Below are positions 3,076-56,358 of a DNA stretch of 64,000 nt, one piece after another (position 1 is the stretch's first letter; each line of letters starts with the position of its first letter). This DNA comes from Coffea arabica (lineage: Eukaryota; Streptophyta; Magnoliopsida; Gentianales; Rubiaceae). Location: contig NC_092312.1 of NCBI RefSeq assembly GCF_036785885.1, positions 18,928,001 through 18,992,000 on the forward strand, read 5' to 3'. Below the pieces are notes generated by a model that had not been told where the DNA came from, did not search any database, and was given only the letters and a program-made list of their open reading frames with translations. The position numbers and the translations under genes are program-made.

Positions 3076-5095
3076 TGCATACATGTATATAAACTTTTTA
3101 CAAGTTGAGTTTGGGTTTATCAAAACCTAAACACCCTTAATTATAGGTTTGTTAAAAAGGGTATTTTGGTTTATAAGTAAGTAATCTTACTTCATCCTAT
3201 TTCCAACCAAACACATGATAAGGTTATTTTCTAATATATCCAGTCTAATATAAAGCCAACCAAATGCTCGATAACAAGATTACTCGTTAGAGAATGACTC
3301 AATTTATGATGAATAATCTAAAAATAAGTAATCCCCTCTCGTCCACTCCATGAACCAAATGCACTCTAAATCTAAGGATTTTGATTAATTTATAGAAGCA
3401 AATAATTGCATAATGTTCAAATGTTGTGCGAAATTAGACGAAAATATAGAAACAATTTTATATAGATCCATTGCGATTACATAAACATAGGTAGAAGAGC
3501 TTTCAACATAGTTTTCTTTTTCTTCTTGTTTTGGTCAGAATTTTAGCTTAGACTCATCAATTTTTTTAGAGATAAAAAAAATTGACAGTAAAGCGTTAGC
3601 TTATATTTACGAGGCAAGTCTAAGGATTTTAACTAACTAAATCGAAATAATTGCATCATGTTAAAATCTTGTGCCAAGTAGATGAAACTGTTAAAACAAC
3701 TTTACCCATTAAATATTGATGATGGTTTATTAGTGGTCAAAGTTACATTTTTTGAAATTACAAATCCTTAGTTCAGATCTTAATCTTACTCTATATTAGT
3801 TTTCTTAGTATTCATCCTACCAGAGTTATTAGTTGATACCTTATGTATTGATTCCACAATTGTGGGTTATTTGTAAGTGGTAATCACAAAAATAAAATAA
3901 AATACTTGACTTGTATTGTGCTGTAGCTTTTGTTCAAATTCTTAACACTAAAAAGTTACGAATTAATCCTGAAATTGTAAATAACATTAGGTACCAACCA
4001 AAATCTTGACATAATTTCAATAAGGATTACATGGCAATAATTGAATGCTGATTTTATGGTTTAGATGCCAACACTACAAATTCGCTTGATAAAATTGAAA
4101 TCTAAAATCTGAGATTAAGAAATTTTTTTGTTTAAAAAGAAAAAAATTTTAAAAGTTTTTGCTTCTAAAAAGAAAAAAAATTATTTTAAATGCGAGAAAA
4201 TGTATTTATTAAGAAAAATTACATTTAACTATTAATTGAGCTCACAAATACCCTAAGATATAGTGATAAAGAAAAGATTTATAAGGATAAACTTGACACC
4301 TTGCAAATCTGGACATTCTACGATGAAGTTGAAAAGAGTTTTCCTGAAATTGTTTTTGTGCAAAGTGATTCCAAAAAAAAAAAGTTACAATGAGTATTTC
4401 AAGGAGAAAGAGCTTTCTCACTTAAATGATCGGTACCAAACTTGGAATAGAATGAATAAGTTGAAAAGATGTTTCTTTTCAGGCCATTCATGCATACCAA
4501 ACACGGGTTAAATGATAAGTGAATAATCTATTAATTATATTTTGGAGTAAGTTTTGTTTAGAAAATTCATTGTCATTTTATTAATTCAAATGTTTTATTT
4601 TTTGTTAAATTACTGAATCGTTAAGCACTAAATTTGATACACTTGATTATATATCATATTAAGTGAAAACTGAATAACCTATCACGTATTTTTTGGAGCA
4701 ATTTTTGCTTAAAAAATTTATTACCATTTAATTAATTTAAATGTTATAATATTTTGTTATCAAATACATCTACATATATTAAAATCTGAACCATTAAATT
4801 TAAATGATGAATTGAATTATTAAACAGGCTGTTTCATACCGTTAAACTTCTTACACTATTTCCTAATCACGTGGTACGTGAGCTCCTCACCAACAACTCC
4901 AAATTGTCTTTTTTTTTTTTTTAAAACCAACAAACAATTAAGAATTATCAATTACAGTCATCCTTGATAAAGGCAAGCTATGTCGTCCAAAACGGAGGCT
5001 CCAAATTGTAATTTTAGGCAAGAATGACAAAAAGGATTTTGGTGTTTTTGCTTTGCTTTCCACCTTAGACATAGCATGATGTATATTTTTTGAGA

Positions 5096-5841
5096 GGGAT
5101 AATATCAAAAACCTCCCTTAAAGTTTGTCTTAATATCACTTGACACCTCTGAGGTTTTAAAAATATCACTTACCTTCTATTGTAATTGTAAAAAGACTAT
5201 ATTAACCCTCACTTGATACATAATTCACATATCAAATAAATGCACCTCAAAAAAAAAAAAAAGAAACAAAAGTCACTTTCTTCCCTTTTCCTTTTTTCCA
5301 ACATTCTCTCTTACTCATTTTTTGGATGACTATTCAATATTTTATTTATAAATTATAATAAATTAAATTTTATTTATCTTTTACTTTTTGTGATTACGAT
5401 AAAGTGGGATATAAATTATTTACTTATTTTGAGTTAATTCTTATAATGATCAGTACAATTTAAAGGCATGGACGCTAGTTGAGAAGAAGTTGAAAAAAAA
5501 AATACAAAGTTAATAAGAAATCAATTTTGAATATATAGAATTAAATTGGTAGAAGTGTATATTTTGTAAATATCTTTTTTATTTTCAAATTTACATTTTT
5601 ATGAGCTATAGCGTTATGATGCATAATACTAATAGAGATTGTTTTATAAGTAATAGATTTTTTTAAAGTGAACAAAGTGATTAGAAATTATTTTATTTAG
5701 CAAGCATGAGGATAATTTAGAATCTTTAAAAAATTTGTTATACAACTAACAAAAATAAGGAATGTAAAAGATATTTTTAAAACTTTAAAGATGCCAAATG
5801 ATATTAAAAGAAACCTTATGGGAGGTTTCTAATATCAACCC
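5096..5841. mobile_element. non-autonomous TIR element, GGGATAATnTCA family (copy 1)
   Basis: The left end is GGGATAATATCAAAAACCTC and the right end in reverse complement is GGGTTGATATTAGAAACCTC. This is the same terminal sequence family as the elements at 29784 and 52398. The 746-bp interior is AT-rich and non-coding. It is the most diverged of the three copies. Superfamily assignment is open; no clear target duplication is visible. Confidence 0.6.
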
Positions 5842-22146: not shown

Positions 22147-22298
22147 TAAGGCCATGCTTGGATTGCTTGTTTCCATCGGAAAATATTATCGTTTTTCGTG
22201 ATCATATTTTCCTATCACCTTTTTCTCTCACGTATATCAAATCGTTACAGTAATTTTTCCATGAAAAATGACGAAAAATACAATCCAAACACAACCTA
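22147..22298. mobile_element. short MITE with TAA target duplication (PIF/Harbinger-like)
   Basis: The terminal repeats GGCCATGCTTGGATTG and CAATCCAAACACAACC bound a roughly 146-bp core and are flanked by TAA on both sides, the target size of PIF/Harbinger elements. A related terminal sequence (CAATCCAAACGGGGCCTTA) occurs near 40410-40428, inside intron 4 of the DHH-like gene. Confidence 0.6.
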
Positions 22299-27845: not shown

Positions 27846-30800
27846 ATGGGAACTTTGGAGGTGGAATCACTAAACACCACCACCACCACCGACGACCACC
27901 ACCAAAAATATGAAGACGAGGATGACTCGCCCATTGAAGAAGTCCGGCTAACCGTGAGCAACTATGACGACCCGACCCTACCCGTATGGACCTTCCGGAT
28001 GTGGTTGTTGGGCCTGCTATCATGTGCCCTGCTATCGTTTCTCAACCAGTTCTTCTCTTACAGGACAGAGCCGCTGATCATATCCCAGATTACGGTCCAG
28101 GTGGCCAGTCTGCCTATTGGACACTTCATGGCGGCAGTCTTACCGGAAAAAAAGTTCCGTTTACCGGGGTTTGGGCAGAGGTTGTTCTCGTTCAACCCGG
28201 GGCCATTTAACATGAAGGAGCATGTCCTCATCACCATCTTTGCTAATGCTGGTGCCGCTTTTGGGAATGGTTCAGCTTATGCGGTTGGCATTATCAATAT
28301 TATCATAGCCTTTTACAAGAGGAAGATATCCTTTTTGGCTGGTTGGCTACTCATTATCACCACGCAGGTAACCTGTACTCGCCTCTCCATATATGTCTGT
28401 CTCGTATCATGTATATGGTGTAGAAATCTTTTTCTTGATTTCTCAGCCAAAATCTTGTCCCAACTGCCGACAACTTAATTGGTTCGGACAAACTAACTTG
28501 TCTGACTCGAATTTGAACATAGACAATTTGCTAATCTTCCCAAAAATTTTTTTTTTTTGATTTCATGCAAAAGTTATCTTCTTTTCTTCTTCTTCTTTTT
28601 GGGATTTCCTTTCCTGCTTTTGTGTCTTAGTTTTAAGTATCTCGACTCGAGTGAAGCAATTTGACACCTAACACATGCTTTCAGAATCCATTTTTCTTCT
28701 CAGTTTCTACATACGAATTGGTGATTAATTGATTAGGTAAGATATCATTTACTAAATCTAATAAATCTAATGATGTGGGATGGAATCCGCAGGTACTAGG
28801 ATATGGGTGGGCTGGACTGCTGAGGAAATATGTGGTGGAGCCAGCCCACATGTGGTGGCCCAACACCCTCGTGCAAGTTTCACTGTTCCGGTAAGTTGTA
28901 TTTTCCGCTCCGCCCCGCCCCGCTTTCGCGGCTCCTGTCCGGCTGCGCTGCAACTGTTGAATTATTAATTGATTGCTCCATCATTCCCTACCTTAGTCCT
29001 GAGACCTGCCCTGAAGCTTTTAATAATCACTTTTTGCCCGCCCCAACCAAATTGGACTTTCCTTCGTTCCATCAATCAGCAAGAAGAAAAGCTGCCAAGA
29101 AGCACGATGAATTCTTTTCATTTTTGTGCTCTTTCTCCACCAAAAAGAAGTCGGCAACCTTAATTACAAAATCATGCATTGAGGAAGTCGTTATTAAACA
29201 GGCTTGAATTCTTTGAAGTTTTTGAGTAACACCAAGTTGCTTGTTTGAAGATCAAGGTATATCACTAGGACTCACTTGACCTAATAATATTTACCTAACA
29301 TATATCATTTTAGCATTTGTCTAGTCATACCTTCGTACCATTTATTTATTTATTTAACACTCTCCAGTGCTTCTTTTTGTTGTAATATGATGAAATGAAA
29401 AGTGATCGAAAATATTTAAAGAAATTAGTTGAAAAATATACTATTTATAATAAATGACATCACTATTGTTAGATCAAATCACTATTGTTAGTTATTACTT
29501 ACTAAGTAGTAATAATGAATGGTTTACAAGGACTTGTAGATTGCTATTTTTTTTTTTTTGAAACTTTTATAGAATGATGTATTATAGTAATTTTATGTGT
29601 ATGAGATAGATAAAAATGTAATTAAGAAAAATCTAAAATTTTTTTAAGGAAAAATTACAAACCAAACAAGGATATGACCCTAGTCTAGCGAAATGCAGGC
29701 CGACATGTTGGATTGCACGCCTGACACAGTAGTAGTGTCTCTCATCCAATAATGCGATTTGGAAAAAGGCCTTTTTTTTTTTTGGGATAATTTCAGAAAC
29801 CTCCCCTGAGGTTTCTGACGCTTTTACTGACATCCCCTGAGGTTCTCAAAATTTCACTTACCTCCCTTGATAAAAAATTGGGCCCCTTTTCTGACGTCAT
29901 CAGGGCCAAAATTACAGATATATTCCAAGTAGTTGGGGTTAATTACTACCGTTTAGTTACATAATGGCATCTGATATGATTAATTAAGCTTAACAACAAT
30001 AATAGAAACTTGATTCCTGATACATGATTATTGTATTATTTCTTATGCAAATATAACATTTAATTATTTAAATTTGATTTTATTTTTACAATTTATAAAG
30101 TTTTTATCACTTATATAATATTTTTAAAACCCTAATACATCTAAATTTGATTTTATTTTTCAAATTTATAAGATTTTTATTTAAAAAAATGGGATACGGA
30201 TAAGATATCCGGTTGGTTCGATTTGCATAGGTGCATATGAGAATATCCGAATACTCCTGAAACCCGCAAGCGGGATTCTGTGTTTTTTCTATTTCAAGGT
30301 TAGCTCGCATGCGGGTTAATGTTATATTTGAGCGCGAGAAGAAAAAATTGGTAATTAGGCTCTTTGGGCATTATAAGTAAATATTTAAATTAATGGCAGT
30401 TTTATTACACCAATATTATTGTATTATCATTATTATGATTATTGTATTATTTCTTATGCAAATATAACATTTAATTATTTAAATTTGATTTTATTTTTAC
30501 AATTTATAAAATTTTTATCACTTATATAATATTTTTAAAACCCTAATACATCTAAATTTGAATCTAATTTTCTACAAGTCATACTTATAAATGCGAAATC
30601 TAACAAAAAAGTTAAATACAATTTTTGCAGGTCAAATTTAACAAATGCGAGCTATTTGCAAAATTTTAAATATTTGCAACATTTTTTAAAACAAAAATTA
30701 GAAGCTTTCTGCAAATAATTCCCTACCTCTCAAAAAATACCAAAATAAAAAAGATAAGAGCTCGCATTTGCTTCCTAGAAATAATTCCCTAGCTCTTAAA

Positions 30801-33800
30801 AAAGGAAAAAAAAAATTGAGAAGAGCTCGCATTCGTGGAATGCGAGCTCAATAACCAGAGCTCGCATTCCACGAATGCGAGCTCTTGTAAGCTCGCATTT
30901 GTGAAATGCGAGCTCATTGAGCTCGTATTTCACAAATGCGAAGACCCCCCTGACGGAAATTAAACCCAAAATCACCCCTTTTGTAGAATTTTTTTAAAAT
31001 TCATCACAAAGTTGGAAATTTCTCAATAGAAATACAACTTGTCTGGATTCCTTTCACTCTCTGATATCACTACGGTTGCTTTGCGATTACAGCGGCAAAA
31101 CCTGTTTTTAATGGAGAAAGATGTAGGTGAATTCCATGATTCTCCCCTATGGCTTGAAGAGGCCATGGTTGCAGCTAAAACTTTTTACTCAGAGCTCTAA
31201 TTGTAGCACAGCAAATGCACTTGTTATCACTCCAAATTAGTAGCAAAGAATGTTAATAGTTTGAAACCTCAGAGGTAGTTAAGTTGCTTTGCTTTATATG
31301 CTATTGCTATTGAAACAGCAAACCTTCTGGCCGTTGCAATTTGCAGCTAGCCGTTGCAAAATCTGCCAAATAACTGTTGCATGGCACATCTGGTGCATGC
31401 AATTTTTTGTATTGCACTTACCCCCCCTCAACTTTACTAATTAGTCCAAATCATTTATTCTTCTTTGAATCTTCTACTAATACAACTTCTGCAAAGGGTA
31501 GCTATGGAATAAAAATACCTTCTCACACATGAAAATAATATTTTAATCTGATTTGGACTGGATTGTTACCACAAAATCAAAAGCAAGGGAGGTAAGTGAA
31601 ATTTTGAGAACCTCAGGGGATGTCAGTGAAAGTGTCAGAAACCTCAGGGGAGGTTTCTGCAATTATCCCTTTTTTTTTTTCCAAACGGCAACATTTGGAA
31701 AAAGGCCTTTGGATTATGAGATTTTGACGTGACGGTCTCATCGGCCGTCACGTGCGACTCCCAGCCGCATGTTCCCATTTTACAGCTAAGCTGCTCATGT
31801 CATCTCATCTGGTTTCCCAACTCGCACATGCGATGATGCGACCCTTTACGTTTAGACGTCAACTAAAAAGTCAAAAGTAAGTAAAAGCTGGGATATCTAC
31901 TAATTGTAAGAAAGAAACAAAAAAAGAGGAGTTGGGCATCGGACAACTTGACGTATAAACTTTGAAATTGGAGCTTTAGAATTAGAGGTTCGAATAGCTC
32001 TTACTTGACTTTCTTTTAGAGTGAGTTATCCAATGGTAAGGACGGACAATGCTATAATATGTATCGTATTGTATTTGTACTATAAGAAGTTTCTCATCAG
32101 GAATATATCATCAGGAAACTGCTAAAAAGTTTCGGTTCTATATAGTTAACCACATCTAGTTGATCCCTTGTTGAAGTGATGGGTCTGTGCCGAATGTATC
32201 GATGCTGCAAGGGGCAGGATTTCAGTAAGTTTGGAGTTTAGTATTGGAGGGTGCGTGCATGCAAGGACAGCATAAACTGCACAAGACTCCAAATTTTTGT
32301 AAAGATTGGCACTCAATTCAACGTTCTTGCTGTATTGACAACTTTGGTTGCTCAGTCAGAGAATTTTGTTTTGTTTATTAGAAATTCAGAAGACCTTCCC
32401 TCCACTTAACATCATCAACTACAGTACAAGAGGTTAATAAAAATTAGCAGTTCTATTCTATGAGCTTTCCAGTTTCAGCATTTGAACTTCCCATCTGTTG
32501 ACAGAAATGAAAAACTTTGAATCAATCCCATCTGTCTAGGGCTCTGTAGTGCCCAGAGAACCATATCTCTTTGCTGATTGCACCAAATTGTCTGGATGAT
32601 TTAAGAGGTGCAGCGTACTATGAGCTAGCTGAGAGGCATCTATGGCTGGCCACAAGCCTACAGCACGAGAAACCACAATACATCACATAATAATTGTTGC
32701 AACGAGTAGTTCTTATCGCCAAATTAACATCATCATTTCTGCGCTAGCGGGAAAACGGATAAGCAAATATGCTGGGCATTTACAGCAATTACAGGGAGTA
32801 GTACAAACCAAATATTCACCTCATCGTAAACCGCATCCGAGATTGTTCAAGCACTAGTTGTTGACAGATACCACAAATTAACTCATTTTATAACCGGCAA
32901 TGTATCTCCCTATTTTCATTTTGTCTTGACTGCGTCTCAACAACATTTTCACAATCTACACAATTCAATTCTTTTTCTGAAACAAGTTAAATAACATTCA
33001 TTTTTCTTTTGCAGGGCCTTGCATGAAAAAGATGAGCAGCGCGTGACGAGGGCAAAATTCTTCCTAGTTGCACTGATCTGCAGCTTTTCTTGGTACCTGT
33101 TCCCGGGATACCTCTTCACAACACTCTCCAGCATCTCATGGGTCTGTTGGGTATTCTCCAAGTCAGTCACTGCCCAGCAAATAGGTTCTGGCATGAGGGG
33201 CCTTGGTATAGGAGCATTAACACTGGATTGGTCTGTTGTTGCATCCTTCCTGTTCAGCCCCCTAATTAGCCCTTTCTTTTCCATTGTCAACGTTCTCGTG
33301 GGGTATGTGTTGATACTCTACATATTCATCCCCGTTGCCTACTGGGGCCTTGACTTGTACAGTGCTAAAAGATTTCCCATTTTCTCATCACACTTGTTCA
33401 CAGCCAAAGGTCAAAAGTATGACATAGTAGCGATAGTAAATGACAACTTTGAGCTCGATTTGAACAAGTATGAGGAGCAAGGAAGGATACATCTGAGCAT
33501 GTTCTTTGCTCTAACTTATGGTTTTGGTTTTGCCACTATCGCATCCACTCTTACACATGTGGGCTTCTTTTATGGAAGGTAATACTAAGCCTGAACCCCT
33601 CTTTTATTTTCCTTTCATTAACACCCTTTTCCTAGTCTAATATATCAATATACCACTTGCAAAGAAGATTCATTTAGATACATTTTCCATTCTTTCAAAA
33701 ATGACTTTCCGAGCCTTTAACTGTTTCTTTGTCTAAACTTGTTTTTGCCTTATCTTCAAGAGCAACTTTAAATTTTTGGAGTTCTGGTTTCAAAAGATTT

Positions 33801-36218
33801 TTAATCAGAATGGTGAAACTATAGTGGCGAATTTCAAATTCATACCACCTTTTACCTAAGTATCTTATTTTGGCATTGACGCAGAATCCAATAAATATGA
33901 AATGGTACAACTCACTCTTTTGATTAAAATTTTGCAGCAAATATTCCTTTAGAACAGAGAATTCAATGTGTTGAAAACATTTCATTCAAATTGATTTGTT
34001 ACTATATTGTTATTTCAACAATGTTGGGAAAATACTGAAACTTAACCATACATACTGCAGGGAAATTTATGAAAGATTCCGTGCTTCGTACAAAGAAAAG
34101 GAGGATATACACACAAGACTAATGAGAAGATACAAGGACATACCTTCATGGTGGTTTCACGTCTTGCTCGTTATAACAATATTAGTCTCGCTAATACTCT
34201 GCATTTTCTTGAACAAACAAGTTCAGATGCCATGGTGGGGTCTCCTCTTTGCCAGTGTCTTGGCCTTTGTCTTCACACTTCCAATCAGCATCATAACTGC
34301 CACCACAAACCAGGTAATATAAAAGAAAAAAAATCTTGGTTTGCTTTACAGATCATTGTATCCTGCTGACATTGTAGAGATTGATTTGCAGACTCCAGGC
34401 CTGAACATAATCACAGAGTACATAATGGGTATAATATATCCAGGAAGACCGATTGCCAATGTTTGCTTTAAAGTTTATGGTTACATGAGCATGGCCCAGG
34501 CAGTCTCATTCCTCAGCGATTTCAAGCTGGGCCACTACATGAAGATTCCCCCGCGATCAATGTTTCTAGTCCAGGTAGATTACATTTACATTCTTAGCAA
34601 GAATGCTACAATTAAAGCTCTATCATCCAAATGAAAGCACATCATGATCATAGCTAGAGTACTTTTGCAATGCCATATGATTAACAAACTGAGGACTCTG
34701 TTTCTCCATAGTGTAGTTAGTCCCAATGAACATCTTGAGGTCTACTAAGTACTTTTGACATGCTCTTGTAACTAATACAGACCTAGAGAAGCTTTCAGTT
34801 CACTTAGATGCATAGGTCACTTTTGCCCCCATAATTTACTTTGAAGTACCACCCCTTAAAGTTTATAAAGTTATAGCGATCTCCCATGTAATTCTGTCGC
34901 TATGTTTTATTGACAGTCATCTCCCTTTCTGACACTGTTCATAATTCTGAGCAAAGAGCCTGATATTTGCTCACATGTAAGCCTAAGGGGGTCTATGTTT
35001 ATGAGGTTACTGACTTTCTGTATTCAAACCCTAATTATCAATATGCCAATACTTAACAGAGGGTATTGTAATCTTCCAAATATGCCTACGGTATAATAAA
35101 GTCTATGGGATGCAACTGCTACTAAAGACATGCCTGGAAACTTCATGTATGTCAATCTTCTTTTTGGCATTAATGATGCCTGTCAAAGGGCATACTTAAT
35201 TTAATTAAGATGTCAATGACTTTTGGAACTAATAAACCTTATTCAAAACTAGGACTAAGGGCAGAGATCATTTCATCTCAAAGATGCTTAAAGGAAATAA
35301 ACCTTTTTAAGGATTTTGAACCCAAACAGACGGGTGGCACAAAGAAAATTGATAAGACTACCAATGAAAATAGCATCTATAAATCACACAAATACGGCAT
35401 GTATAAACAAAGAAAGTGCTGCTTTGCTTTAATGAAAAAACAAAATGTACACTAGGATCAGAAGTAATAATTACACAGCTAGTCATCTCAGAAAACATAC
35501 TAGAACAAGGAATTCTGTAGCAAAACTGTTCAAATTTTCTTTTGAATCATACTTAAGGTGGTATTAACATCAGGATATCTTATTTCCTCTTGGGTGAATC
35601 CAGTTCATAGGAACAATTGTAGCAGGCACCATCAACGTATCTGTGGCGTGGTGGCTGCTGCACTCCATTAAGAACATCTGCCAGGATGACCTCCTTCCAC
35701 AAGATAGTCCATGGACATGCCCTGGAGACCGGGTGTTCTTTGATGCATCTGTCATATGGGGTTTGGTTGGACCTAAAAGGATTTTTGGAACTCTAGGAAA
35801 CTACACTGAAATGAATTGGTTTTTTCTTGGAGGGGCCCTGGGACCTATTATAGTTTGGCTCTTCCACAAGGCATTTCCAAAGCAGTCTTGGATTCCTCTA
35901 ATTAACCTCCCAGTCCTTTTGGGAGCAACAGGTGCCATGCCCCCAGCAACACCATTAAATTACAATGCCTGGATCATAGTCGGAACCATTTTCAACTTTT
36001 TTGTCTTCCGTTACCGAAAGCAGTGGTGGCAAAGGTACAATTACATTCTTTCAGCAGCTCTGGATGCTGGTGTAGCTTTCATGGCTGTGCTGCTATACTT
36101 CACAGTGGGAATGGAGAATAGAGAAGTTACTTGGTGGGGCACAAAGGGGGAACAGTGTGATTTGGCAACATGTCCAACAGCCAAAGGCATAACTGTTGAT
36201 GGTTGTCCAGTGCGCTAA
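27846..36218 (+). CDS. oligopeptide transporter (OPT family) protein
   Basis: There are six exons: 27846-28367, 28793-28890, 33015-33578, 34061-34313, 34392-34574 and 35604-36218. They give 745 codons (744 aa), normal for plant OPTs, with all junctions in phase and GT-AG. After an acidic cytosolic N-terminus, the [20 protein letters not shown] block is the conserved start of plant PT-clade OPTs. The family NPG motif is intact ([14 protein letters not shown]), as is the C-terminal KIPPR segment, and the last exon has the WW and CPGDR blocks. Repeated hydrophobic segments fit a polytopic plasma-membrane carrier. Family members move peptides, glutathione-type compounds or metal chelates by proton coupling; which substrate applies here is not evident. 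Intron 2 (4.1 kb) contains a TIR transposon. A broken copy of exon 6 lies 1.2 kb downstream. Confidence 0.95.
30026..30561 (+). repeat. direct repeat of ~124 bp inside the intronic TIR element
   Basis: 30026-30149 and 30437-30561 are almost identical. Both begin GATTATTGTATTATTTCTTA and end CCTAATACATCTAAATTTGA. The near identity implies that the duplication is young or maintained. The unit is AT-rich and non-coding. Confidence 0.85.
30823..30941. repeat. cluster of four nested palindromes (AGCTCGCATT)
   Basis: 30823-30849 is a 27-bp palindrome with arms GAGCTCGCATTC around GTG. 30857-30885 repeats it in inverse orientation, so that the two pair perfectly over 27 bp. A third (about 30890-30914, CTCGCATTTGTGAAATGCGAG) and a fourth (about 30918-30941) form a second inverted pair. 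The cluster could fold as individual hairpins or as two larger stems. It sits in the middle of the TIR element in OPT intron 2. Confidence 0.85.
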
Positions 36219-36867
36219 TGGATAAATGATTACAAACATCATCGCTGCTTGTGGTCTCGAAAATTTGCAGAACACACTACGTGGATGGTTGGATTCTTCA
36301 TTTACAAAGAAGACCTTAGATATCTAATATTTTGTACACAAGCTATTTATTCAACACTCTGATGTTAAACATCCTCCAAGAAATGTCAAAGGCCACATCA
36401 ATTCTTATTTAGTAGGAGAATTATGTTATTCAGTTGCTTTGACTTTAAGATGTCATATTCTTTTGGTCAACACTCTGCAATCAAAATAGAATCTGCAACA
36501 TCTATGTCAAAAGTTTCTAAGAGACAATTGTTGACATAGGGTTAGGCATGCATTTTCAATTGCCATTCAACTAAGACATTTCACAAACAATTGATGTGAC
36601 TTATTGAACTACGGTATATATGTCAAAGTAGGGGAGCAGCTACACCACATTTCCATTGCCCTGTTAACATGGAGATTTGATCAATGACTGAAATTCATTC
36701 TCTAACAAATAAAAGCTCTAACAGGACTATAAAATCAATCTTTAAAAAGCAATTTAAATGACATAGTAACAGATAGGAAGAGATTGAGGTAAAGAGAACA
36801 AATTAGAATTGTCAATTCCTTCTCAATGCAGCAAGACTAAAAGCAAGGAGACTTTTTCTGCTAGCAG
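36219..36867. other. OPT 3' untranslated and downstream region
   Basis: This stretch follows the OPT stop codon. It should contain the 3'UTR and polyadenylation region. A diverged copy of 36219-36430 recurs downstream of the pseudo-exon (about 37860-38108), which defines the right part of the duplicated OPT segment. No gene is seen. Confidence 0.6.
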
Positions 36868-37154
36868 AAGGCAAAAGATTATGTTTATGTGCACCAGTAG
36901 ACAGCTAACAAAATTTACTTTCCCAACATCTCCAGTATGAGAGTATATGTGAGGAAAAAGACTATGATGCAGATAACTTCCATAATTTCTAGGGAAGATC
37001 CATCAATTTTGTCAGAAAAATAACAGATATCAAATTAATCAAGATTTGCATTACAAATACTGTTGACAATAAAATGCAGCAATCAAATACTGAAGGAAGA
37101 TAGCTTTGTTTTCACCATGCATTCCCCATACAACCCTCTGCCCAGGCGAACATG
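36868..37154 (-). pseudogene. fragment of DHH-like gene: intron 5 and 3' end of exon 5
   Basis: The plus-strand sequence from CTGCTAGCAGAAG onward matches intron 5 and exon 5 of the intact gene (39477-39783) with many substitutions and small indels. The exon-5 remnant retains the complement of GGGCAGAGG(G/C)TTGTATGGGG. It breaks off inside exon 5, where the OPT-derived sequence begins. No function is expected. Confidence 0.75.
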
Positions 37155-38108
37155 CAAGAACAAGGAGTTCTGTAGCAAAAGCTGTTTCGTTGGCAGTGAA
37201 AATCATATTTTACAGAAATATTACCATCAGGTTTTATAATTCTTTCTTGGGTGGATCCAGTTCATAGGAACAATTATAGCAGCACTATCAACATATCTGT
37301 GGCATGGTGGCAGCTGCACCCCATTGAGAACATCTGCCAGGATGACCTCCTTCCACCAGATAGTCCATGGACATACCCTGGAGATAGGGCGTTCTTTGAT
37401 GCATCTGTCATAGAGGGTTTGGTTGGACCTAAAAGGATTTTTGGAACTCTAGGAAACTACACTGAAATGAATTGGTTTTTTCTTCGAGGGGCCCTGGGAT
37501 CTACTATAGTTTGGCTCTTCCACAAGGCATTTCCAAAGCATTCTTGGATTCCTCTAATTAACCTTCCAGTCCTTCTGGGAGGAGGAGGTGCCATCCCACC
37601 AGCAACACGATTAAATTACAATGCCTAGATCATAGTAGGGATCATTTTCAACTATTTTGTCTTCCATTACCGAAAGCAGTGGTGGCAAAGGTACAATTAC
37701 ATTCTTTCAGCAGCTCTGGATGCTGGTATAGATTTCATGGGCATGCTGCTATACTTCACACTCGGAATGGACAATAAAGGAGTGACTTGGTGGGGTACAA
37801 ATGGGGAATACTGTGAATTGGCAGCATGTCCAACAGCCAAAGGCCTCAATTGAAGGTTGTCCAGTGCACTAATGCATAAGTGATTATACACATCATCTGC
37901 ATTTGTAGCCTCATTGGATTTTTCATTAACACAGAGGACTTTAGGTATCTTACATTTAGTACACAACTATTTCTTCAACATTCTGATGCTAAACCTCCAA
38001 GAAATCTCAAAGCCCATAGCAATCCCAATTAAGTAGGAAAAATATGTCAATCAGCTGCTTTGATGTATTATGATATCCTATTCTTATGCAACTTCTATGC
38101 CAAAAATC
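37155..38108 (+). pseudogene. broken duplicate of the last OPT exon
   Basis: 37155-38108 copies the end of OPT intron 5, exon 6 and the 3' flank (35501-36430). The acceptor GGATCCAG and following TTCATAGGAACAATT survive. A one-base deletion at about 37285 shifts the frame early. A TGG-to-TAG change at 37626-37628 stops the frame that would otherwise remain open, and the terminal block near 37850 has lost bases. Long stretches stay very similar ([22 protein letters not shown]), so the duplication is not ancient. Because intron sequence is included, it arose at the DNA level and not by retroposition. Confidence 0.88.
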
Positions 38109-38640
38109 CTTTTGGTCCAAGAAAAGCTTTGGAAATGTTGAAAAGCTCTAAAGCAAAACCTTTTGGTCCAAGAAAATCAAGAAAGTAACACTCTTTTAAG
38201 TCCTTCAATGCAAACATCTTCCACACTATATGAAAGAAACTGATTAGTGAAATATATTACTGCTAAACATGCTAGCCTTTTTTTTTTTTCATTTTTTTTG
38301 GGACAATAAAATCAACTTGGAGGAAATGTGAATATAGTAGTATTAGTCTTACCAGAAGGGAATGGTGGAATAGAAAGGCAAACTGAGGCAAGGGAGATTG
38401 AGGCGGGAGTGGTAGAGGTGTGCAAAGAGTGAGGAGAAGGATAGCTGTAGAAGATGACGACATGTGGGGTTTTGGCCTACGATGTAGAACTCCGACATGG
38501 TAGCACTGGTGGTCGTGGGGGACAGTGGAAGGAAGAACAATGAGAGAGCCATTGGGCTAAGCTTCATGAGGAAATGTCCTTGCCGGTTGCTGGTTCGACT
38601 AATTGTACAGCCATTTCCTTCCAACAATGTCATTCAACTT
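38109..38640 (-). pseudogene. broken duplicate of DHH-like gene exons 1 and 2
   Basis: On the minus strand, 38633 to 38349 contains a copy of exon 1: MALSLFFLPLSPTTTSATM, then SLFAHLYHSRLNLPCLSLPF. It is much changed and shortened in the middle. 38230 to 38109 contains a copy of exon 2 with an extra T in the CACTCTTTTAAG block that shifts the frame, and an internal partial repeat of CCTTTTGGTCCAAGAAAA. Exons 3 and 4 are absent. It lies about 80 bp beyond the stop of the intact gene. Confidence 0.82.
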
Positions 38641-38717
38641 CTTTAAGCCTAGTTTGGGATTTGGAAAATAAATATTTATATTACAGGATGAAAATTCATC
38701 TCTGTACGTTAATGCGC

Positions 38718-41700
38718 TCAGGATGAGCATGATGAGAGCCATTTGTTATATTCATCCATCCGGATGATGAAGGAGCTGGAACCTGGAGAGCCACCTCCAC
38801 CACAAGCCTTCATATTTGAAAATACAAAGAAGCTTCAGAGGAGTATTTCACAAGACAACCAGCAGTCTAAGTTTTTTACAATCACCAAGCACACCTTAGA
38901 AATTTCGGAAGTATCAGTATTGACATCCATGCTCCTCAAACACATTTTAAGATTGTTTCGTTGCATGTAAACAACAGCTCCTATAGACCTGAATCAACAC
39001 CAAAGATCCAGATCAGAATAGAGAACAAGAATTGATAGTGTATGTGCACACTACAATTACACCACCATTCCTTAACTAGTCCTGCTAGACAAGGTTTTTT
39101 CCTATGATAAAATTAAACACCGTAAGGAATAGTTTTCAAACCACAGGGCAGTTTCATAAACCAGGAATACTTCAAAAACCTCAATACTAGCGTGATATAC
39201 CAGAAAACGACTAACAAAGTAAATCAAACACTCTGCATTTAGCTTGTTAGACCAGAAACAATAAAAATGAATGAAAAGAAGACTTTACTAAGATACTACC
39301 TTAGTCCAGCCACAGCACTTCTTCTGCTAAGTTCCTTGCCAACCTCATCAATTAAATCTGAACTACCATAAAGTCTGACCCCCTAAAAAAAATAAAGGAG
39401 TTAAAAAGTGTACATAAATTACCAGAAAACAAATCAAATAAATAAATCTACAAACATTTCTGAAGAGCGATTTTCTCTGCTAGCAGAAGTTAGAAAATTG
39501 TGCTCATGCTCACAGAGTAAAAATCCAGCGACATGCACTTTTCCAAAATCTCCACTATGAAAGTATATGTGAAGAACATGGCTATGATGCAGGTAATTGT
39601 GCTTTATTATAATTCTTAGGTAAGATCCATCATTTTTGTCAGACAAATAACAAATATCATATTTCATCAAGACTCTTATTCCAAAGCTTTTGAGGCAAAA
39701 AAGAAGCAATCATGATCCTGAAGGATGATAACTTTATTTTTACCAGGCATTCCCCATACAAGCCTCTGCCCAACCGAACTTTGAAAACCTTATCCAACAA
39801 TTTGTTTGCAGCAATCTGTCGAGTAGACACAGAGGAGATGCCTCCAGCAATTATATCCATGGCACTCATCTCCATCAACTGTCACAGAAAGAGAATTGGT
39901 ATGACTAAGTTAAACTTTTGAAGAAAAATTTAAACCTGCTGAATTTGATGCATAAAGGAACACACAATGCAGAAAGCATATACTTCAATCCTGATTAGTT
40001 TGAAATAAATTGAATTGAAATAATTTTAATTTTTTTAAAAGATTATTTTTCCCTATGTTCCAGTAAATTAACACTTGATCTTTTCATTTCCTTCCTTTTC
40101 CTTCTTCAATCCAAACAAAAATTTAGTATTCCTTTCTTTTCCTCTCATACTTAATCCAAACAAGATAGATGGAAACCACTTTCCATTAATACCCTTTCCT
40201 TTCCTTTCCTTTCCTTTCCCTTCCATTCCTTCAAACCAAACGGTGCCTTAATGAAAGGAAGATGCACATGGCTACCAAGAGAAAGGTTATGGCACTTATT
40301 TTTCTGGATTTTTTGTAGAAAAATTACTGTAGCGATTTGGTATATGTGATAAAAAGGTGATAGGGAAATGTGTTCACGGAAAATGTAGTAATTTTTCTGA
40401 GGAAAATCGCAATCCAAACGGGGCCTTAGATTTCTTCTTTTGACAGAAATGATGAGAAACCCACATAAAATCAGACAAAAACCAACTTGTTCTCAATGTA
40501 ATACAAAAAATTAGCAGACTTGAGTATCTGAAGGCTCCCGCTAAGTCCTATTCACCACTAGGCAATGACCTCAAAAGCCAGTGTCAGTGTGTAACCCCCC
40601 AAATAAGATTAACTTTGAACTCTGAGCTACCCAGAGAATGGGAAACCAACAATAATTGCAAACTTTACAACAATTTGAGTCACTTCTAAGTCAAACCTGC
40701 TTATACATCTGTGGATTAGTGATGCAGTTGAGCTTCGAGCGCCATTCACGAATACCAACATTAAATGTTTCGCTGTCTGGCAAACTCCATCTACGAAGAT
40801 CTCCATCTTCAATGTACTTGAGAACCAATTCCACACGCTCTCGGTCTTTAGGATCTGTCAGACCTATACTGTTCTCCTATTATTTTATCCAAACTACTGT
40901 GTCAAAAAATCTACGTAAAAAGACAAGTATATAAACATAATACTGCAAAGCAGTAATACTTACATCATCCGAGACAATTTCTGAAAGCTTAGAAGAGAAA
41001 TATTCATAGACAGCAAAGGAGCTACTCTTCTCAAGATTGACATGTAACGCAAGGTTCTCATTCAAATTTTCCTTAGGAGCAGGAATCTTCGCCAACGTCG
41101 ACTTACGATGATCAAATCCTATTACCCTAATTAAAACAACAATTAGACTCAACTTATATTTTCAGGAAATTTCTTCGCAAAAAAGAACTCGAATTGAAAG
41201 AAAAGGAAAACAGAAAAAAAGACATACTTGCAAGATGTTTGCTTGAAAAGCTCTAAAGCAAAACCTTTTGGGCCAAGAAAATCAAGAAAGTAGCACTCTT
41301 TAAGTCCTTGAATGCACACATCTTCCACCCTGTATATAAAAAAATGATTACTGAAAAATACAAGACATATTAACCAATTTTTCTTTTTTTTTTTTTTTTT
41401 TTTTGCGTTCGAGTTGTTTGGCATAAAAAAGTCAACATGGAGGGAGTGCGAGTATAGTAGTATTAGTTTTACCGGAAGGGAATGGCGGACGAGGAAGGCA
41501 GAATGAGGCAAGGCAGATTGAGGCGGGAGTGGTAGAGATGTGCGAAGAGTGCGGAGAAGGCACCGGAGAAGGAAGGATAGTTATAGAGGACGAGGACGTT
41601 TGGGGTTTTGGCTTCGGAGGCCTTGGATAGGGCTTCAAGAGCTGCGTCCGATCGAAAACTCCGGCATGGTACCACTGGTGGAGGTGGTGGTGGTGGTAGA

Positions 41701-41741
41701 GAACAGAATCTCCACTTTCGGCAGAATACTGAAAGAGCCAT
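38718..41741 (-). CDS. DHH/DHHA1-like phosphoesterase-superfamily protein, function unknown
   Basis: There are eight exons: 41741-41473, 41329-41228, 41126-40964, 40876-40697, 39878-39744, 39382-39300, 38988-38895 and 38807-38718. They give 372 codons (371 aa), all GT-AG and in phase. The N-terminus has a seven-proline run and may be a targeting peptide. NVLVLYNYPSFSGAF occupies the position of the first phosphoesterase motif but lacks its aspartates. VIGFDHRKS looks like the DHH motif with the second histidine replaced. The C-terminal GAVVYMQRNNLKMCLRSMD followed by CGGGGSPGSSSF resembles the DHHA1 substrate-binding end with its glycine-rich turn. Metal-binding residues seem incomplete, so activity is uncertain. 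A damaged tandem copy follows. Assignment rests on motif resemblance only. Confidence 0.75.
40193..40221. repeat. (TTTCC)n microsatellite in intron of DHH-like gene
   Basis: CCTTT/TTTCC pentamers repeat about five to six times inside intron 4 of the DHH-like gene, within a longer pyrimidine-rich tract. Confidence 0.8.
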
Positions 41742-42765
41742 TTTGGCGAAACTGGAGGAGCAAATGTCCTTGCCGGTTGCCGGTTGCCGGTTCGACTAAT
41801 AATGCCAGCGTTGCCAAAGAATAAAATAGATAGATAAATAAATAAATAATGCATGTGTAATTAACTCTTCCAAACGACTTCGTTCCACTTTCTTTGGAGT
41901 TTGGAGGGGGTGAAAAAGCAAAAGTAAAACACTCAACCACAAGAGGGAGCGAGTCTCCTCCTCCTTGCACTTACAGTCGAGACTTCTTCTCTTCTTCCTT
42001 TTTCCTCTTCGCCGGTTTCTTCAGCACCGGCGACAATACCGCCAACGCTGATTACTCCCAATTACCGCCCCCGGGCGCCAAATTTATTTATTCCTTTTTA
42101 GTTTTCATACAGCATTCTCAGCTGGTAATTTCGTTACTGTTACTGCAATTGACTTTTGATTTACGGCGTCGTATCATTATGCTGGTGAAAGGCTCTACAA
42201 AATATACGATTGCCACTCCGATTTTCTTTTGAAGCGAAATAATTGAACAATTTGCTCTTCTGTGTCCGCCATTCACTTCGATCCAAGGTCCTGAGCACTT
42301 GATCCTGCCGCAGTATTCATTCTTTTCTTTTATTTTCCAGTAAGTATTGCGAAATTCATTTTGTTTTGATAAATTATCCTTTTTCCCCCCCTTCTCCCAG
42401 GTTTTAGGGCTCTTTTTGTTTGGTTTTTTAGGTAGGACGTACTTGACAGTATCAATTGTGTAATTCTTTCAATTGTAATAGCATTAAACCCCTAGTCTAT
42501 TATTTTTTCCAAAATTTTGGATTTTTTTAATCTGGTATGGTTCTCATTTTTGGCGATTACAATCCGATTTGGGTGCGAGAAACTGGAACTTAGGATTTTG
42601 TAAGGAGTATGAATAAGGTTAATGTACTTGACCTTTGATGTTAAGCTTGTTACTGCATTCTCTTAATTTAGTTTCGGGTTAGTTGCATCTCATTTGGGTA
42701 TTCTTTTGTTCGTTTTGTTATTGGGTAATTTTTCCCTGATGTTGCTTGCTTTTGGTTTTGAAGGA
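41742..42765. promoter_or_regulatory. divergent promoter and leaders of DHH-like gene and SYP81
   Basis: The two genes start in opposite directions with 1024 bp between the ATGs. On the SYP81 side, a donor TTTTCCA followed by GTAAGTATTG at 42340 and an acceptor TTTTGAAG ending at 42763 indicate a 5'UTR intron of 424 bp. The shared non-transcribed core is therefore at most about 500 bp. The short spacing suggests a bidirectional promoter. No obvious TATA box is seen at either side. Confidence 0.5.
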
Positions 42766-50306: not shown

Positions 50307-51676
50307 TAATTTGATTGTTACTGTGAAGAAACTGAAAAAAAAAAATAGTTTGAGGGAAATGATTAGAGCGGAAAAAAGAAAAACAGGAGAGTGTTCTCAA
50401 GGTTCATGAGAGGCATTTTTCTACAACACCATACATGTTTCTTGCTGGTTCTTCCCACTTCCATATATGGTTGGTTTTTTTTTTTTTTAGCATTCCAAGT
50501 TACTGGCTCCGAAATATAAGGTGAAACATCAGCTCTATCTCAAATAGTTATGCGTTCCTAATAACATGAAAGAACAAATAATGATATCCAGCACACCATA
50601 TATATAGTATAGCATAGAACACATTTCATCTTTGCTTATGTTTTGTCAAGAACGAAAAGAAATATATATATATTTTTGGCTAGAACTCTGATTTATATAG
50701 CTGTCAACTCATGAAAGGATTAGGGATTAGAACCAACACCATTTATATTGAGTTTTGAGGGTACGTATAACAACAACTGCTTGATCTGATAATTGAAGCT
50801 AATTGATTTAAATTTATTTGTATATTCATTTTTTTTTTACTTTTGAGTTAGAAATCATTTTTACAACAAGTGTAAGGTAAGTCCTTTAACGTTTGTACCC
50901 AAAATTGTTCCAAGACATTTCAAATGGGGTGCTTAGATATCATTATAATTTGCTTTCCAAATTCTTAGGTACACTTTGGATATGGACTAATATTCTGAGT
51001 GAGGATAGGTCATTTTGGCTTCTCGACTTTAAAATTTGCCTATTTGGTCGCTAAAGAATTCATTTGGTTTTTGGATGGTCAAATCGATCAACCATATTGA
51101 AGATTTTGTTTCTACATGGTAACTACTATTTTTATAAGTTGACAGACCCACCAAGCGCGTCAAATTTTCAAAATGCGTATTTGTAGTGTAGGTTAGGTAT
51201 TTCTATCTCTCTTACACTTTTAACCCACCAAGTGTCAATATAGCATTTGCAGGTACACAATATGTACATCCTCCTCGAACTCTCATTTTTGCTCGACGAA
51301 AATATCAAGAGATGACATCGAAACAAGCGGAAATGTAACTAAGAATAATTATCTACTTCCCCACATCCATTTGCTATTTTGAACATTTAACTATCAATTG
51401 TTTTTGCATCATATCTAAGTATATGTGTTTGTGCCTAGCTAATGTGATAAATGGAATGGTGGTATTTAACTTCCCATGAATGGTATTTAATTATATCTGG
51501 GTGAAAAAAGTATTATAGGGTCTGAAACTACTTAATTTAATTAGGAGGGATTAACTGCTTGCGATGTATTTCTTGCGGCATTCAATTGTAAATTATTCGC
51601 ACCCAATTAAGCGCGAGATCTAATTTTTTTTTTTCTAATCATGTTTTTTCCTTTGGAAGTTATGGTATTAATTAGA
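50307..51676. other. upstream region of O-fucosyltransferase gene and intergenic sequence
   Basis: This region contains the leader and promoter of the minus-strand O-fucosyltransferase gene near 50307-50700. After that comes AT-rich sequence with no recognisable gene. A segment near 51000-51240 (TCATTTTGGCTTCTCGAC..) resembles old repeat sequence, but I could not define its ends. Confidence 0.4.
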
Positions 51677-54058
51677 GGGAAAAATGCACTTTTCATCCTC
51701 AAATGCTGGGTTGATGACTGATTTCGTCCTCAAAGTTTCATCAAGAATACATTTCATCCTCAAAGTTCTTGAATTTTGGCCACTTAGGGACAATTGACAG
51801 AATAACACTCAATTTGGACGGAAAGTTGCACGCGAGAAGCATGTTCTATTAGAACCAACCAAAAAGGGATAAAATCCGTTCAGAAGTGCAGATATTAGTG
51901 GTATAACTTCTGAATTCTAATTTTTGTATCTTTACGTTATTTTGTTTATGGTCCATATTCAGTAGGAGCCATGTCAAGGACCACTTGGAATGCATTTTTG
52001 ACAAGCCTATGCCTCTTCTTTTTTGATGGTTTTAGTTGGTTATATTAATTTGGTTACAATATCCAGTTTGGTTGCTACTTTGGATTGTTAAAATTTAAGG
52101 CAAAACTCTACCAAAATTTTCCTTCTTACCTTATTGACATGTAAATCAGCATGAAGATAAAAATAGTTGGTGATTTTTTTTTTATAATGCCTATTTTAGC
52201 TTGGAACTCAAATCATACCCATAAATAACTGGTAGTTTTTTCAAATAATGGACGAAAACAACGAACGTCTGATAGTTTATGGGAAATAAAAGAAGCCCAC
52301 AAAGAATCCTATGCATAGCTAGCATTTTTTTCATTTCTAGAGAAGGTAAAAAAAGAAGTTATAAAGAGGTGATAATTTTTGGACAAGATAAAAGAAAGGA
52401 ATAATTTCAGAAACCTCCCCTGAGGTTTTTGACAATTTCACTCATCTCCCTTAGTTTTGAATAATTACATTAACCTCCATTCATGCAGTAAAATTACTAT
52501 AATATCCTTCACTTATAGATAATTTTTAAAAAAGTCTACAACTAAAACTAATCTTTCATTTTAAAACAACGGTTACCACACAAAACAAACTCTTATTCTC
52601 TCTCTTCGATGCTCTCTCTTACCTTTTCTCTCCTGTATTTCATAGTCCACTTTTTTTCCATAGTTGCCATCTATACAACCATCTAATACATCCCGAATCC
52701 TCATTATTATGGAAATAGATCCTTTTTTTTTGTTTTCCTTTTTTGTAACTATTATTGAATTGACATTGCTAAATAATAGGTTGTCAAAGCATATTTGTTA
52801 TCAAACTAAATGAAGATGAAAAGAATGGCGGTGATACAAATTACAAACAAGAAAATAAAAAAGATGGCTAAAAAAGAAACATAGATTGAGGAAGATTACA
52901 CTATTATACCAATTGTGTAAAAAAAAAAAGAATTTTGGGATATAAGAACTATAATCAAATTTGCCTAAAGACATAGAATGTGGTCTCTAATGTTGCTTTT
53001 GGTTGCTCCTTATTGGTATTCTTGGTGGATTAGATTATTTTAACATCAACAAGCTTGCATCCATTTTGATTGAATTTGAATAATGACATTGGTCAATTTA
53101 GATGCAAAATTTGGGTAAAAAAATTGAGGAAAAAGATTAGGTTGAATGGAATGGTTAATTGTCATAATTGATTTGTACAGGAAGCTTTAGAGCTGCAAAG
53201 TTGGGCTTTCGAAATTATGAGAATACGAGGATTAAGTTAAGGTGGCTTATTGACTTCGTTAGGGTGGTAGTTATGCCGATTGCAATAGTTGCAATGTGGA
53301 AGAAATTCATGAGCGAGTTTCCCCCCCTTCTAACTAATAAAGAGGTATTTTAGGGGTTTTAGGACAAATTTAGCATAGTGGATTTATATATTGTTACTAA
53401 AATACTAATAGTAGAGAAGGTAAGTGTAATCTTTTAAATTAGAGAGGACCTACCTACAATAGTCAAAACCCTCCCCTGAGATTTCTGAAATTATCCCTAA
53501 AATTAAAGTTATAAACAACTGGTAGTTTCTATACAAGATAAAGAAACAATAACCTACCAATTTTTTATGGATTTCCTCTATTTTTGCAAATAGAGTTTCC
53601 TCTATTATATTTTCTTATAGGTAAAAAATAAAATAAAATTTAAACTAAATGGACTAGGTTAATTTAATGCGTTTCGATAGATACTCAAATCCAAGTCATC
53701 TATAACCCATGAATAAGTGGATGTCGACCATTTATGTCAACCTTTTTCCTAGAAATGACTGGATTTAGAATGGTAAGGGTGGTTAGAAATTTTTTTAGAA
53801 TTACAATAAGAAGAGGAGCGGAGAGGACATAAATGAAGCAAGAACAGGTTTTATCCTTTTTTTGTTGAATGCAAAGTTGGTTCTAACGGGGTATGCTTCT
53901 TACGCGTTGCTTTCCATCCAAATTAAGTGTTATTCTGTCAATTGTCCCTAATTGGCCAAAATTCAGAAACTTTGAGGATGAAATGTATTCTTAGTGAAAC
54001 TTTGAGGGCGAAATTGGTTATCAACCCAACCTTTGAGGATGAAAAGTGCATTTTTTTC
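51677..54058. mobile_element. non-autonomous TIR element with 9-bp target duplication (Mutator-like)
   Basis: The left end GGGAAAAATGCACTTTTCAT and the right end in reverse complement (GAAAAAAATGCACTTTTCAT) start inverted repeats of about 190 bp (51677-51865 and 53870-54058). Both ends are flanked by TTAATTAGA (51668-51676 and 54059-54067), a perfect 9-bp target duplication, the size typical of Mutator-like elements. The 2382-bp element has no transposase and contains another TIR element at 52398-53498, so it is the older host of a nested insertion. Confidence 0.85.
52398..53498. mobile_element. non-autonomous TIR element, GGGATAATnTCA family (copy 3), nested
   Basis: The left end GGAATAATTTCAGAAACCTC and right end in reverse complement (AGGGATAATTTCAGAAATCTC) match the terminal family seen at 5096 and 29784. 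The element is about 1.1 kb and lies inside the Mutator-like element 51677-54058. The interior is non-coding as far as I can see. No target duplication is clear. Confidence 0.72.
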
Positions 54059-54067
54059 TTAATTAGA

Positions 54068-56358
54068 TGCCATCAATGACAAAAGGACATATTACATTCA
54101 AATTAATGGCAAGACTGCATTAAGGCCTGCCTGCTCTTAGCCAATTTTTAAGACGCGCTTTCAGCTTGTGATTTTAGAAAATCAGTTTTGTGATGTTAAT
54201 TATGATGTGCTAAAAAAAAAAACCTCCATATACTTACTTTTTGGATGCTGGTTTTGAGTTTATAAAAATTAACATTTACAAGAAGCGTAATCAGCTAAGT
54301 ACGCCCTAAACACAAAATGACAAGTCATTTTCCTTTAATTTTAGTCCTACACATTCTAAATTTGAAAATGTAAACTTTTCCTTTATTTATTTTTTTTTGT
54401 TCAAGTCTTGAGGATTAATTCTAGATACGTCAGAAAGACGAGGGACCATTTACCAATTTGCCGTAACATTAGGACTTATGTGGCATGCTTATCGATGGAC
54501 TATTCCACGTGTAACTGCCGGCCAGTTGTTCTAGCCACATTTGTACTTGCTATATGATCGGTTTTCTTACTCCTCCATATTAACATCAAAAAATCGAATT
54601 TTTATGAATGATCAAAGTGTCAATATCTTCATAATTGCTCGAAGAATGGTCCGAAAAGAATTGGCTATCTGCGGATTAGAGTCTGAATCTGAAGTATGAA
54701 CTACTACTATTCATCTCTTCGTTAATGCACTTTGTTTATTCTGGGATTAGTTTTCAACTTTCCTGTTACTACCATTGGTTACAACCAATATCTTCGAGAG
54801 GTAGCAATTAATTTGGTGAACAATGACAGTAGTTGTAGCCTCTGTAGGAGTAAGGGGCCAAGAGGGGTCACCTTTTCATGATCTCACCACAACTATGTGT
54901 ACAAATCAACCAAGACACATCAGTATATTTTAGACCGCCTTTGTAAGTCATTTCTGAAATTTGTCGCCCATTATCATCTTCTTTTTTATTTTTGTTACCA
55001 TATATTGAGAAAAATGATTTGTTTGGTGGTCTACAATCTGCATTTGGGTGTCAGAAGATTGCCGGCCCAATTGATATTCTGCTGCGTAACAGATGGGAAT
55101 CTCCCTTCTGGAATTTCTGGTAAAGGTTTTAACTGCAGCTGCGCCTGATTTTTGATGGGCTATTAAACTAGTTTAAACCATTGCTGGATCAGAGAGAGCT
55201 AAATAATCCATATGGAATTGGAAGTGATTTCACCAACTTATTTGATTCTACGCAACTACCATGCAGAGTTGCATGTGTTGAAATTTTCAAGTTTTGAGAA
55301 AGCCCTAGTAGTTTACTAAGTTAGAGCCTTCACATTCAATCTCTAATGCGGATTTTATTTTGCTTAGAAAGATCATACAAGTGTTTATTAAATGATTTGG
55401 TTGCTAATGCATTCTGGAAAAAGTAGTCTTTGCTCTTAAAGAATATTACATCCATGGAAGGTTTAATATCAATATCCATGGTGTCACTCTGCTGAGGCAC
55501 TTTTTAGAATGAATTGCTCTATATGAACAAATTTGACTGATCTCCAGGAACATGGAGAAATGCAGTCAGGCACCTAGCAATTTTTCACTTGCTAAATCAT
55601 TCTCCTTGTGCTTCAGTGGTCATATGTCGATATTGATTGTTTATGGGATATATATTCTTATTTCTTAGTTGGATGTTTGACATATTCTCTCGTTGTTCAG
55701 TTACTTGAATAAGCAGACTTCGGTAGTTCATGAAACTTAAGCTTGGAAGTTGGACGAATTGAACTAAAAATATGTGGGCTATCAAGTACAAGGAGTGATG
55801 GTGACCCCGTAAAATTGCATCAGTTGAGACAGAACATGGTCAATCATAGCCATGAAAAGACTGTGTTGAGCTTGTTTGTTATTCTGGAGTTAGATAACAC
55901 GCAGTCTTCCGGATGGATAAATATCCCCCTATTCATAGTGAAGCAAGCTTAAATACCAAGATGCTAAGCATCATACTCATTAGAAGTTCAGAAGCAGCAA
56001 CACTTACAGATTCTTTGCTTTCAAGATCTTATTCAAATTATTACTTTACATGCATATTTGCTTTCCTTGGGAGATTAATTCTAAATCTGTTTCATAGAGT
56101 GTAATGAAAATCTCAAACTGATAACTATCTTTCTTATAAATTATTCTATCACAAGTATCACTGTTAAAGCTTGCTTTTTATGATGGGGCAGATTGTTGAT
56201 GAAGGATGGACTGATACGCCTCACAACTCTAACCCTGCTCTTTAATTCAGCTTCAGCCTGTTTTAGTTTACATGTTAGATTAGTACAAACAATTTCATTA
56301 ATTAGCTAATCACAACAAAAAATCATCTGAATATACATTGTACGTTTTTGAGTGATAC
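54068..56358. other. intergenic region and 3' flank of the truncated MADS copy
   Basis: No gene is recognised. From about 55970 to 56260 the sequence is similar to 59610-59900, the 3' flank of the other MADS copy; shared blocks include TTCAAGATCTTATT and CAGC(T/C)TCAGCCTGTT. This shows that the tandem duplication extends past the stop codons. A short frame near 54990-55110 reads plausibly as protein but resembles nothing I know. Confidence 0.45.

Follow-up and report, generated by a model that had tools for sequence, protein, structure and literature searches.

A decayed block of interleaved OPT and 'DHH-like' gene pieces in Coffea arabica and its possible stepwise origin

Between two intact genes of Coffea arabica, an OPT gene and a gene referred to here as 'DHH-like', self-comparison of the analysed DNA and base-level alignments reveal a block in which pieces of both neighbours are interleaved. 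The DNA (hereafter the window) comprises 64,000 nucleotides of contig NC_092312.1. According to BLAST self-comparison and alignments, the block extends from 36850 to about 38610 and consists of three pieces, each in direct orientation to its parent (Table 1). The reading tentatively preferred here, held with a confidence that stops slightly short of even, is that the block is a fragmented pseudogene which arose at the DNA level from two adjacent genes through stepwise duplication and deletion; it is most likely non-functional. An earlier note on this DNA had described interleaved OPT and 'DHH-like' pieces in this order and in direct orientation, and they are indeed present, with matches of 213, 1017 and 289 bits; its statement that two adjacent genes were the donors of a decayed product is likewise borne out by the alignments, the frameshifts and an in-frame TAG.

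Arrangement of the Block

The left piece consists mostly of intron 5 of the 'DHH-like' gene, the share of exon 5 being about 36 bp (39744-39779) according to a hand-made exon model. The exon content previously proposed is corrected in that exon 5 contributes only these 36 bp or so and that the right piece reaches the 5′ UTR beyond exon 1. The middle piece was extended to 38107 (36515 in the parent) over a 30-bp gap; its ends were set by hand, 38089-38107 is less certain, and the extension was not clear in a second alignment with other scores. The right piece was stretched by alignment to about 38126-38610 from two BLAST matches, 38138-38476 against 41243-41612 (76.6%, 289 bits) and 38531-38595 against 41720-41785 (80.3%, 58 bits), and its homology 5′ of the 'DHH-like' start codon stops after about 45-60 bp. 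When low-complexity sequence is masked, all four BLAST matches survive, the 289-bit match then spanning 319 columns, and the best score between the block and 20 windows shuffled in 3-mers was 35.6 bits. Similarity confined to low-complexity sequence, which had been named as an outcome that would undermine the observation, is therefore rejected, since the matches persist under masking and lie above the shuffle scores.

Table 1. Positions in the window of the block, its parents and its junctions.
Feature	Position	Strand	Basis or remark
OPT intron 5 end, last exon (~35600-36218) and 3′ flank; parent of middle piece	35494-36515	+	Pfam OPT and alignments
Junction 0, OPT 3′ flank against 'DHH-like' intron 5 (39469)	36840-36850		Clear homology ends; not base-resolved
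Left piece, 'DHH-like' intron 5 and part of exon 5	36850-37151	-	Copy of 39469-39779; 76.3%, 312 columns, 213 bits
Junction 1, 'DHH-like' 39779 to OPT 35494	37148-37151		AAC common to both donors (by eye)
Middle piece, OPT intron 5 end, exon 6 and 3′ flank	37149-38107	+	37149-38088 against 35494-36465; 83.4%, 976 columns, 1017 bits
Junction 2, leaves OPT near 36515	38103-38125		18-bp filler 38108-38125
Right piece, 'DHH-like' exon 2, intron 1, exon 1 and 5′ UTR	38126-38610	-	Copy of ~41229-41800
Junction 3, right-piece end against 3′ flank of intact 'DHH-like' gene	38596-38690		Not base-resolved
Intact 'DHH-like' gene; parent of both outer pieces	38690-41800	-	Open frame; GT...AG at modelled introns
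'DHH-like' exons as modelled	41473-41741, 41228-41329, 40964-41126, 40697-40876, 39744-39878, 39300-39382	-	Last exon uncertain

Absent between the pieces are the rest of 'DHH-like' exon 5, intron 4, exon 4, intron 3, exon 3 and intron 2, and the block also lacks all 'DHH-like' sequence 3′ of 39469, that is, exon 6 and the 3′ end. The earlier claim that only the exon 3-4 region had been replaced is contradicted by this larger gap and by the missing 3′ end. Because its 3′ end is missing, the copy cannot be read as a complete one that received a patch, and a 3′ truncation is also needed. Non-allelic repair that put an OPT segment in place of the middle of a tandem 'DHH-like' copy would explain why the outer pieces follow the order of one such copy, and three events (duplication, patch and 3′ truncation) would be enough; the loss of exon 6 and of the 3′ end makes the patch alone insufficient, and no sequence feature demands a replacement step. 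Such a history is considered rather improbable.

Capture of gene fragments by Pack-MULE or Helitron elements typically yields chimeric fragments with introns, and Helitrons are marked by TC...CTRR ends and a 3′ hairpin. Capture by a transposon of either type would in this respect suit the chimeric, intron-bearing block. No terminal inverted repeats above chance were found around the block: the best score between 36466-36849 and 38596-38760 was 9 in either orientation, and for a similar pair of flanks the same inverted-repeat score of 9 was equalled in 212 of 500 single-base shuffles of the left flank. Both donors, moreover, are immediate neighbours of the block, and capture by a transposon is very improbable. 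In 38596-38717, neither gene was matched above the shuffles, apart from the segment's own overlap with the searched range.

Donor Genes and Genomic Setting

Three reading frames of the OPT gene match the Pfam OPT family, with E values of 2.4e-40, 1.4e-42 and 1.6e-27, the first of which belongs to the frame 35598-36215 in the last exon. The identity of the other donor is less clear. Its hand-made exon model yields 310 residues ahead of the uncertain last exon, and this spliced protein, with the last exon omitted, matched no DHH family in either Pfam or NCBIfam when E values as high as 1 were allowed; NCBIfam returned nothing, the sole Pfam match was SelB_WH1 (E = 0.027, below its cut-off), and the search against the PDB gave one chain at E = 0.67. 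When four of its exon frames were searched one by one with a limit of E = 0.1, no family was named by Pfam. The label 'DHH', which was taken over from the earlier note, therefore finds no support in Pfam or NCBIfam and is kept only as a name. Farther to the right, this gene is followed by an O-FucT frame (Pfam E = 7.5e-38), and near 42.7 kb there is what we take, from its sequence, to be a syntaxin-81-like gene, whose short frames drew no Pfam name. No Rfam match at the gathering score was found across the window.

Several repeats occur elsewhere in the window. A 1.9-kb stretch between OPT coding frames (29784-31669) is bounded by 86-bp inverted repeats that are 96.5% alike, with weaker copies of these repeats near 5092-5177 and 52390-52484, and it looks like a non-autonomous DNA transposon. 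Within it, a 138-bp direct repeat (30024-30161 and 30435-30572) is 97.1% identical and, judged by this identity, would be much younger than the pseudogene block. Inverted related copies of a MITE-like sequence, 78.7% alike, are located at 22147-22280 and 40297-40428, the latter within intron 4 of the 'DHH-like' model, which belongs to the sequence absent from the block. Another inverted repeat joins 51662-51859 and 53876-54073 (199 columns, 85.4% identical).

Decay and Divergence of the Copies

Introns 5 and 1 of the 'DHH-like' gene and the end of OPT intron 5 are retained in the block and align to their parents, and a processed pseudogene (retrocopy) is rejected on the strength of this intron sequence. 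The proposal that the process acted on DNA is thereby upheld for the copies of both genes. Disabling changes in the OPT copy are two deletions, of 1 bp near 37282 and of 2 bp near 37847, and an in-frame TAG at 37626-37628; with introns kept, a frameshift, a stop codon and missing exons, the block has the features of a duplicated (non-processed) pseudogene. Differences between the OPT copy and OPT exon 6 are spread evenly over the codon positions (17 of 204, 18 of 206 and 19 of 206), as would be the case with a drifting copy and a constrained parent; this neutral pattern refers to the OPT copy only and not to the 'DHH-like' exons.

The noncoding Kimura two-parameter (K2P) divergence from the parents is 0.268 for intron 5 in the left piece (95% interval 0.201-0.350, 265 sites), 0.213 for the middle piece (0.159-0.275, 309 sites) and 0.214 for intron 1 and the 5′ UTR in the right piece (0.141-0.298, 173 sites). 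Noncoding values of 0.21-0.27 indicate that the block is old. The intervals are wide and all three pairwise differences between pieces include zero, which leaves room for a common age as well as for moderate differences in age. An assembly artefact is scarcely credible, because the noncoding parts differ from the donors by these K2P values and by indels, whereas local genes joined in error would have yielded pieces almost identical to their donors; misjoined diverged copies from elsewhere could still show such values.

The exons are less diverged than the noncoding parts. OPT exon 6 and its copy differ by a K2P of 0.094 (0.068-0.120), less than half of the noncoding values; for the 'DHH-like' gene, exon 2 gives 0.064 (6 differences in 98 sites) and exon 1 gives 0.183. 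Such low exon values would fit a history in which change took place mostly in the copies, yet they are on the low side, and the exons with low K2P may have undergone partial gene conversion. At fourfold sites, the divergence between OPT exon 6 (35600-36218) and its copy (about 37257-37875) is 0.117 (102 sites), again below the noncoding divergence, which seems to reflect either low synonymous change in the parent or partial conversion of exon 6.

Junctions and the Templated Filler

Alignment of the block to its donors with mapping of the breakpoints, which had been suggested as a check, placed two of the junctions within a few bases: junction 1 near 37150 and junction 2 near 38103-38125. The donors share 3 bp at junction 1 and about 5 bp at junction 2, as counted by eye. 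The 18-bp filler at junction 2 recurs exactly at 38159-38176, about 50 bp away, and differs by one mismatch from 41264-41281 in the intact gene, at a G/T site where 41272 contrasts with 38116 and 38167; with up to 3 mismatches, three matches occur in the window against 0.18 expected, and three were reached in 0 of 100 shuffles. Two sources fit this region, since the donors resemble each other there: 38104-38125 aligns to 'DHH-like' exon 2 with a score of 16, and 38100-38120 aligns to inverted OPT exon 6 (35767-35788) with one gap and a score of 18, each reached in 0 of 200 shuffles, although these segments were picked after the repeats were known and the shuffle counts flatter both sources. 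Inspection by eye shows that inverted OPT exon 6 35767-35788 resembles 'DHH-like' exon 2 41260-41281 along some 13 bases, interrupted by one gap and one mismatch; both stretches encode Gly-Pro-Lys, and the resemblance falls where junction 2 lies.

Whichever donor was used, the filler looks templated. Its identity to the block's own copy of exon 2, compared with one mismatch from the intact gene, weakly suggests that it may be of later origin. Filler copied from near the junction, as expected of polymerase-theta end joining, was found at junction 2 only, where its source is ambiguous with inverted OPT exon 6. As for the template switching invoked in the earlier note, the filler speaks for templated synthesis at this one junction, and the divergence of the pieces does not separate the models.

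Origin of the Block

Let the ancestral order be A B C D E F G H, where B stands for the OPT piece, E and G for the 'DHH-like' pieces, D for the 'DHH-like' 3′ end and F for the middle of that gene. The window now shows A B C E B G D E F G H, an arrangement that contains C|E, E|B, B|G and G|D as its four new joints. Tandem duplication is marked by joints that run right to left, as E|B and G|D do, and deletion by joints that run left to right, as C|E and B|G do. In a search over tandem duplications and deletions, using hand-defined block borders and strings of up to 16 blocks, no solution was obtained at one, two or three steps and six were obtained at four steps, all six consisting of two duplications and two deletions. 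The joint 39779|35494 leads, without inversion, from a position farther downstream in the parents back to one farther upstream, as a tandem duplication does. A tandem 'DHH-like' copy patched with OPT sequence by template switching or non-allelic repair, as originally proposed, is thus possible and is not required, because the four-step alternative, with two overlapping tandem duplications and two deletions, gives the same order.

We infer the number and order of the events, and the enzyme involved, as follows. The first step would have been a tandem duplication spanning OPT intron 5 to 'DHH-like' exon 5, which created the junction 39779|35494 and left an OPT last exon on its own; the 'DHH-like' gene would next have been duplicated in tandem, which placed its 5′ end ahead of the intact copy; two deletions would then have stripped the redundant rest, and one of them would have been repaired with the 18-bp templated filler in the style of polymerase-theta end joining. 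This sequence of events uses common events only and agrees with the direct orientation of all pieces, which tandem duplication and deletion must keep. Against it stands the need for four events within one 1.8-kb interval, compared with one for a templated insertion, and the similar divergence of the pieces fits a single episode at least as well.

The main competitor, possible and clearly less probable, is a single event in which repair of a break between the OPT and 'DHH-like' genes copied three nearby templates serially, passing from 'DHH-like' intron 5 to the OPT last exon and then to the 'DHH-like' 5′ end, either by serial template switching (FoSTeS/MMBIR) or by synthesis-dependent strand annealing. 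Under this single event, the three pieces would be of one age, with which their similar divergence agrees within wide intervals, and every jump is shorter than 5 kb; the shared bases at junctions 1 and 2 also agree with it, although they are too short to be distinctive. The filler is a further point in its favour, but may stem from a later deletion. Free switching should sometimes invert a piece, whereas the three long pieces are all direct. Similar divergence slightly favours one episode and orientation slightly favours stepwise duplication and deletion, and the weights given here to the stepwise, one-event and patched-copy histories are a matter of judgement.

In the available text of PMC4056370, templated bases at breakpoints are a prediction of replication-based models, which makes the filler a mark in favour of one event and counts against stepwise duplication and deletion. 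The accessible part of PMC12426944 describes small templated insertions as a hallmark of plant and metazoan microhomology-mediated end joining, names polymerase theta, and gives templated insertions of up to about 35% in A. thaliana. According to sections of PMC7935947, fragmented and single-exon pseudogenes are the most abundant in five plant species, and tandem and proximal pseudogenes are in excess over functional loci, which counts for the stepwise history; in the same sections, tandem and proximal pseudogenes are not found to be tied to fragmentation, and fragments are tied to break-filler copying and dispersed copies, which counts against it, the discussion of plant gene fragments copied as break filler being also a point for a single event.

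Possible Role and Significance

Most likely the block does nothing. A regulatory role for the block, in which a leftward transcript from the retained 'DHH-like' 5′ end would run antisense through the OPT copy and seed small RNAs against the intact OPT gene, is highly doubtful. Exact identity between the OPT copy and OPT persists in seven runs of 21-70 nt, which would suffice for small RNAs to be seeded, and covers 123 of 920 21-mer positions; the 'DHH-like' pieces have 12 21-mer positions in common with their parent.

Taken alone, the locus changes little. It illustrates that an interleaved chimeric pseudogene beside intact genes can arise without a transposon or a retrocopy, and it gives reason for caution, as an interleaved order need not imply template switching. 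Should it represent a single templated insertion, it would be a datable natural case of serial template switching in the plant germ line; together with syntenic relatives, it would provide a usable test case of stepwise duplication against one-step templated insertion.

Comparison with Known Systems

The locus is a fragmented duplicated pseudogene block of a kind common in plants, ordinary genomic debris in which the interleaving of pieces from two neighbours is a minor twist. No title among those listed in literature searches refers to this locus. It resembles the tandem and proximal non-processed pseudogenes of plants, as far as the available sections of PMC7935947 describe them, in being made of partial copies beside the parent, with introns kept and disabling changes; it differs from that class in that two different neighbours are interleaved, and the paper, in those sections, ties strong fragmentation to dispersed copies. 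The short filler at junction 2, which copies nearby sequence, is like polymerase-theta end joining as presented in the accessible part of PMC12426944; that process explains one junction, and the long pieces of 0.3-1.0 kb exceed the small insertions described there. With FoSTeS/MMBIR, and with the filler of synthesis-dependent strand annealing as treated in parts of PMC7935947, the block shares the joining of several nearby templates in one place, and it differs from these in that none of its long pieces is inverted and a single event is only a candidate history.
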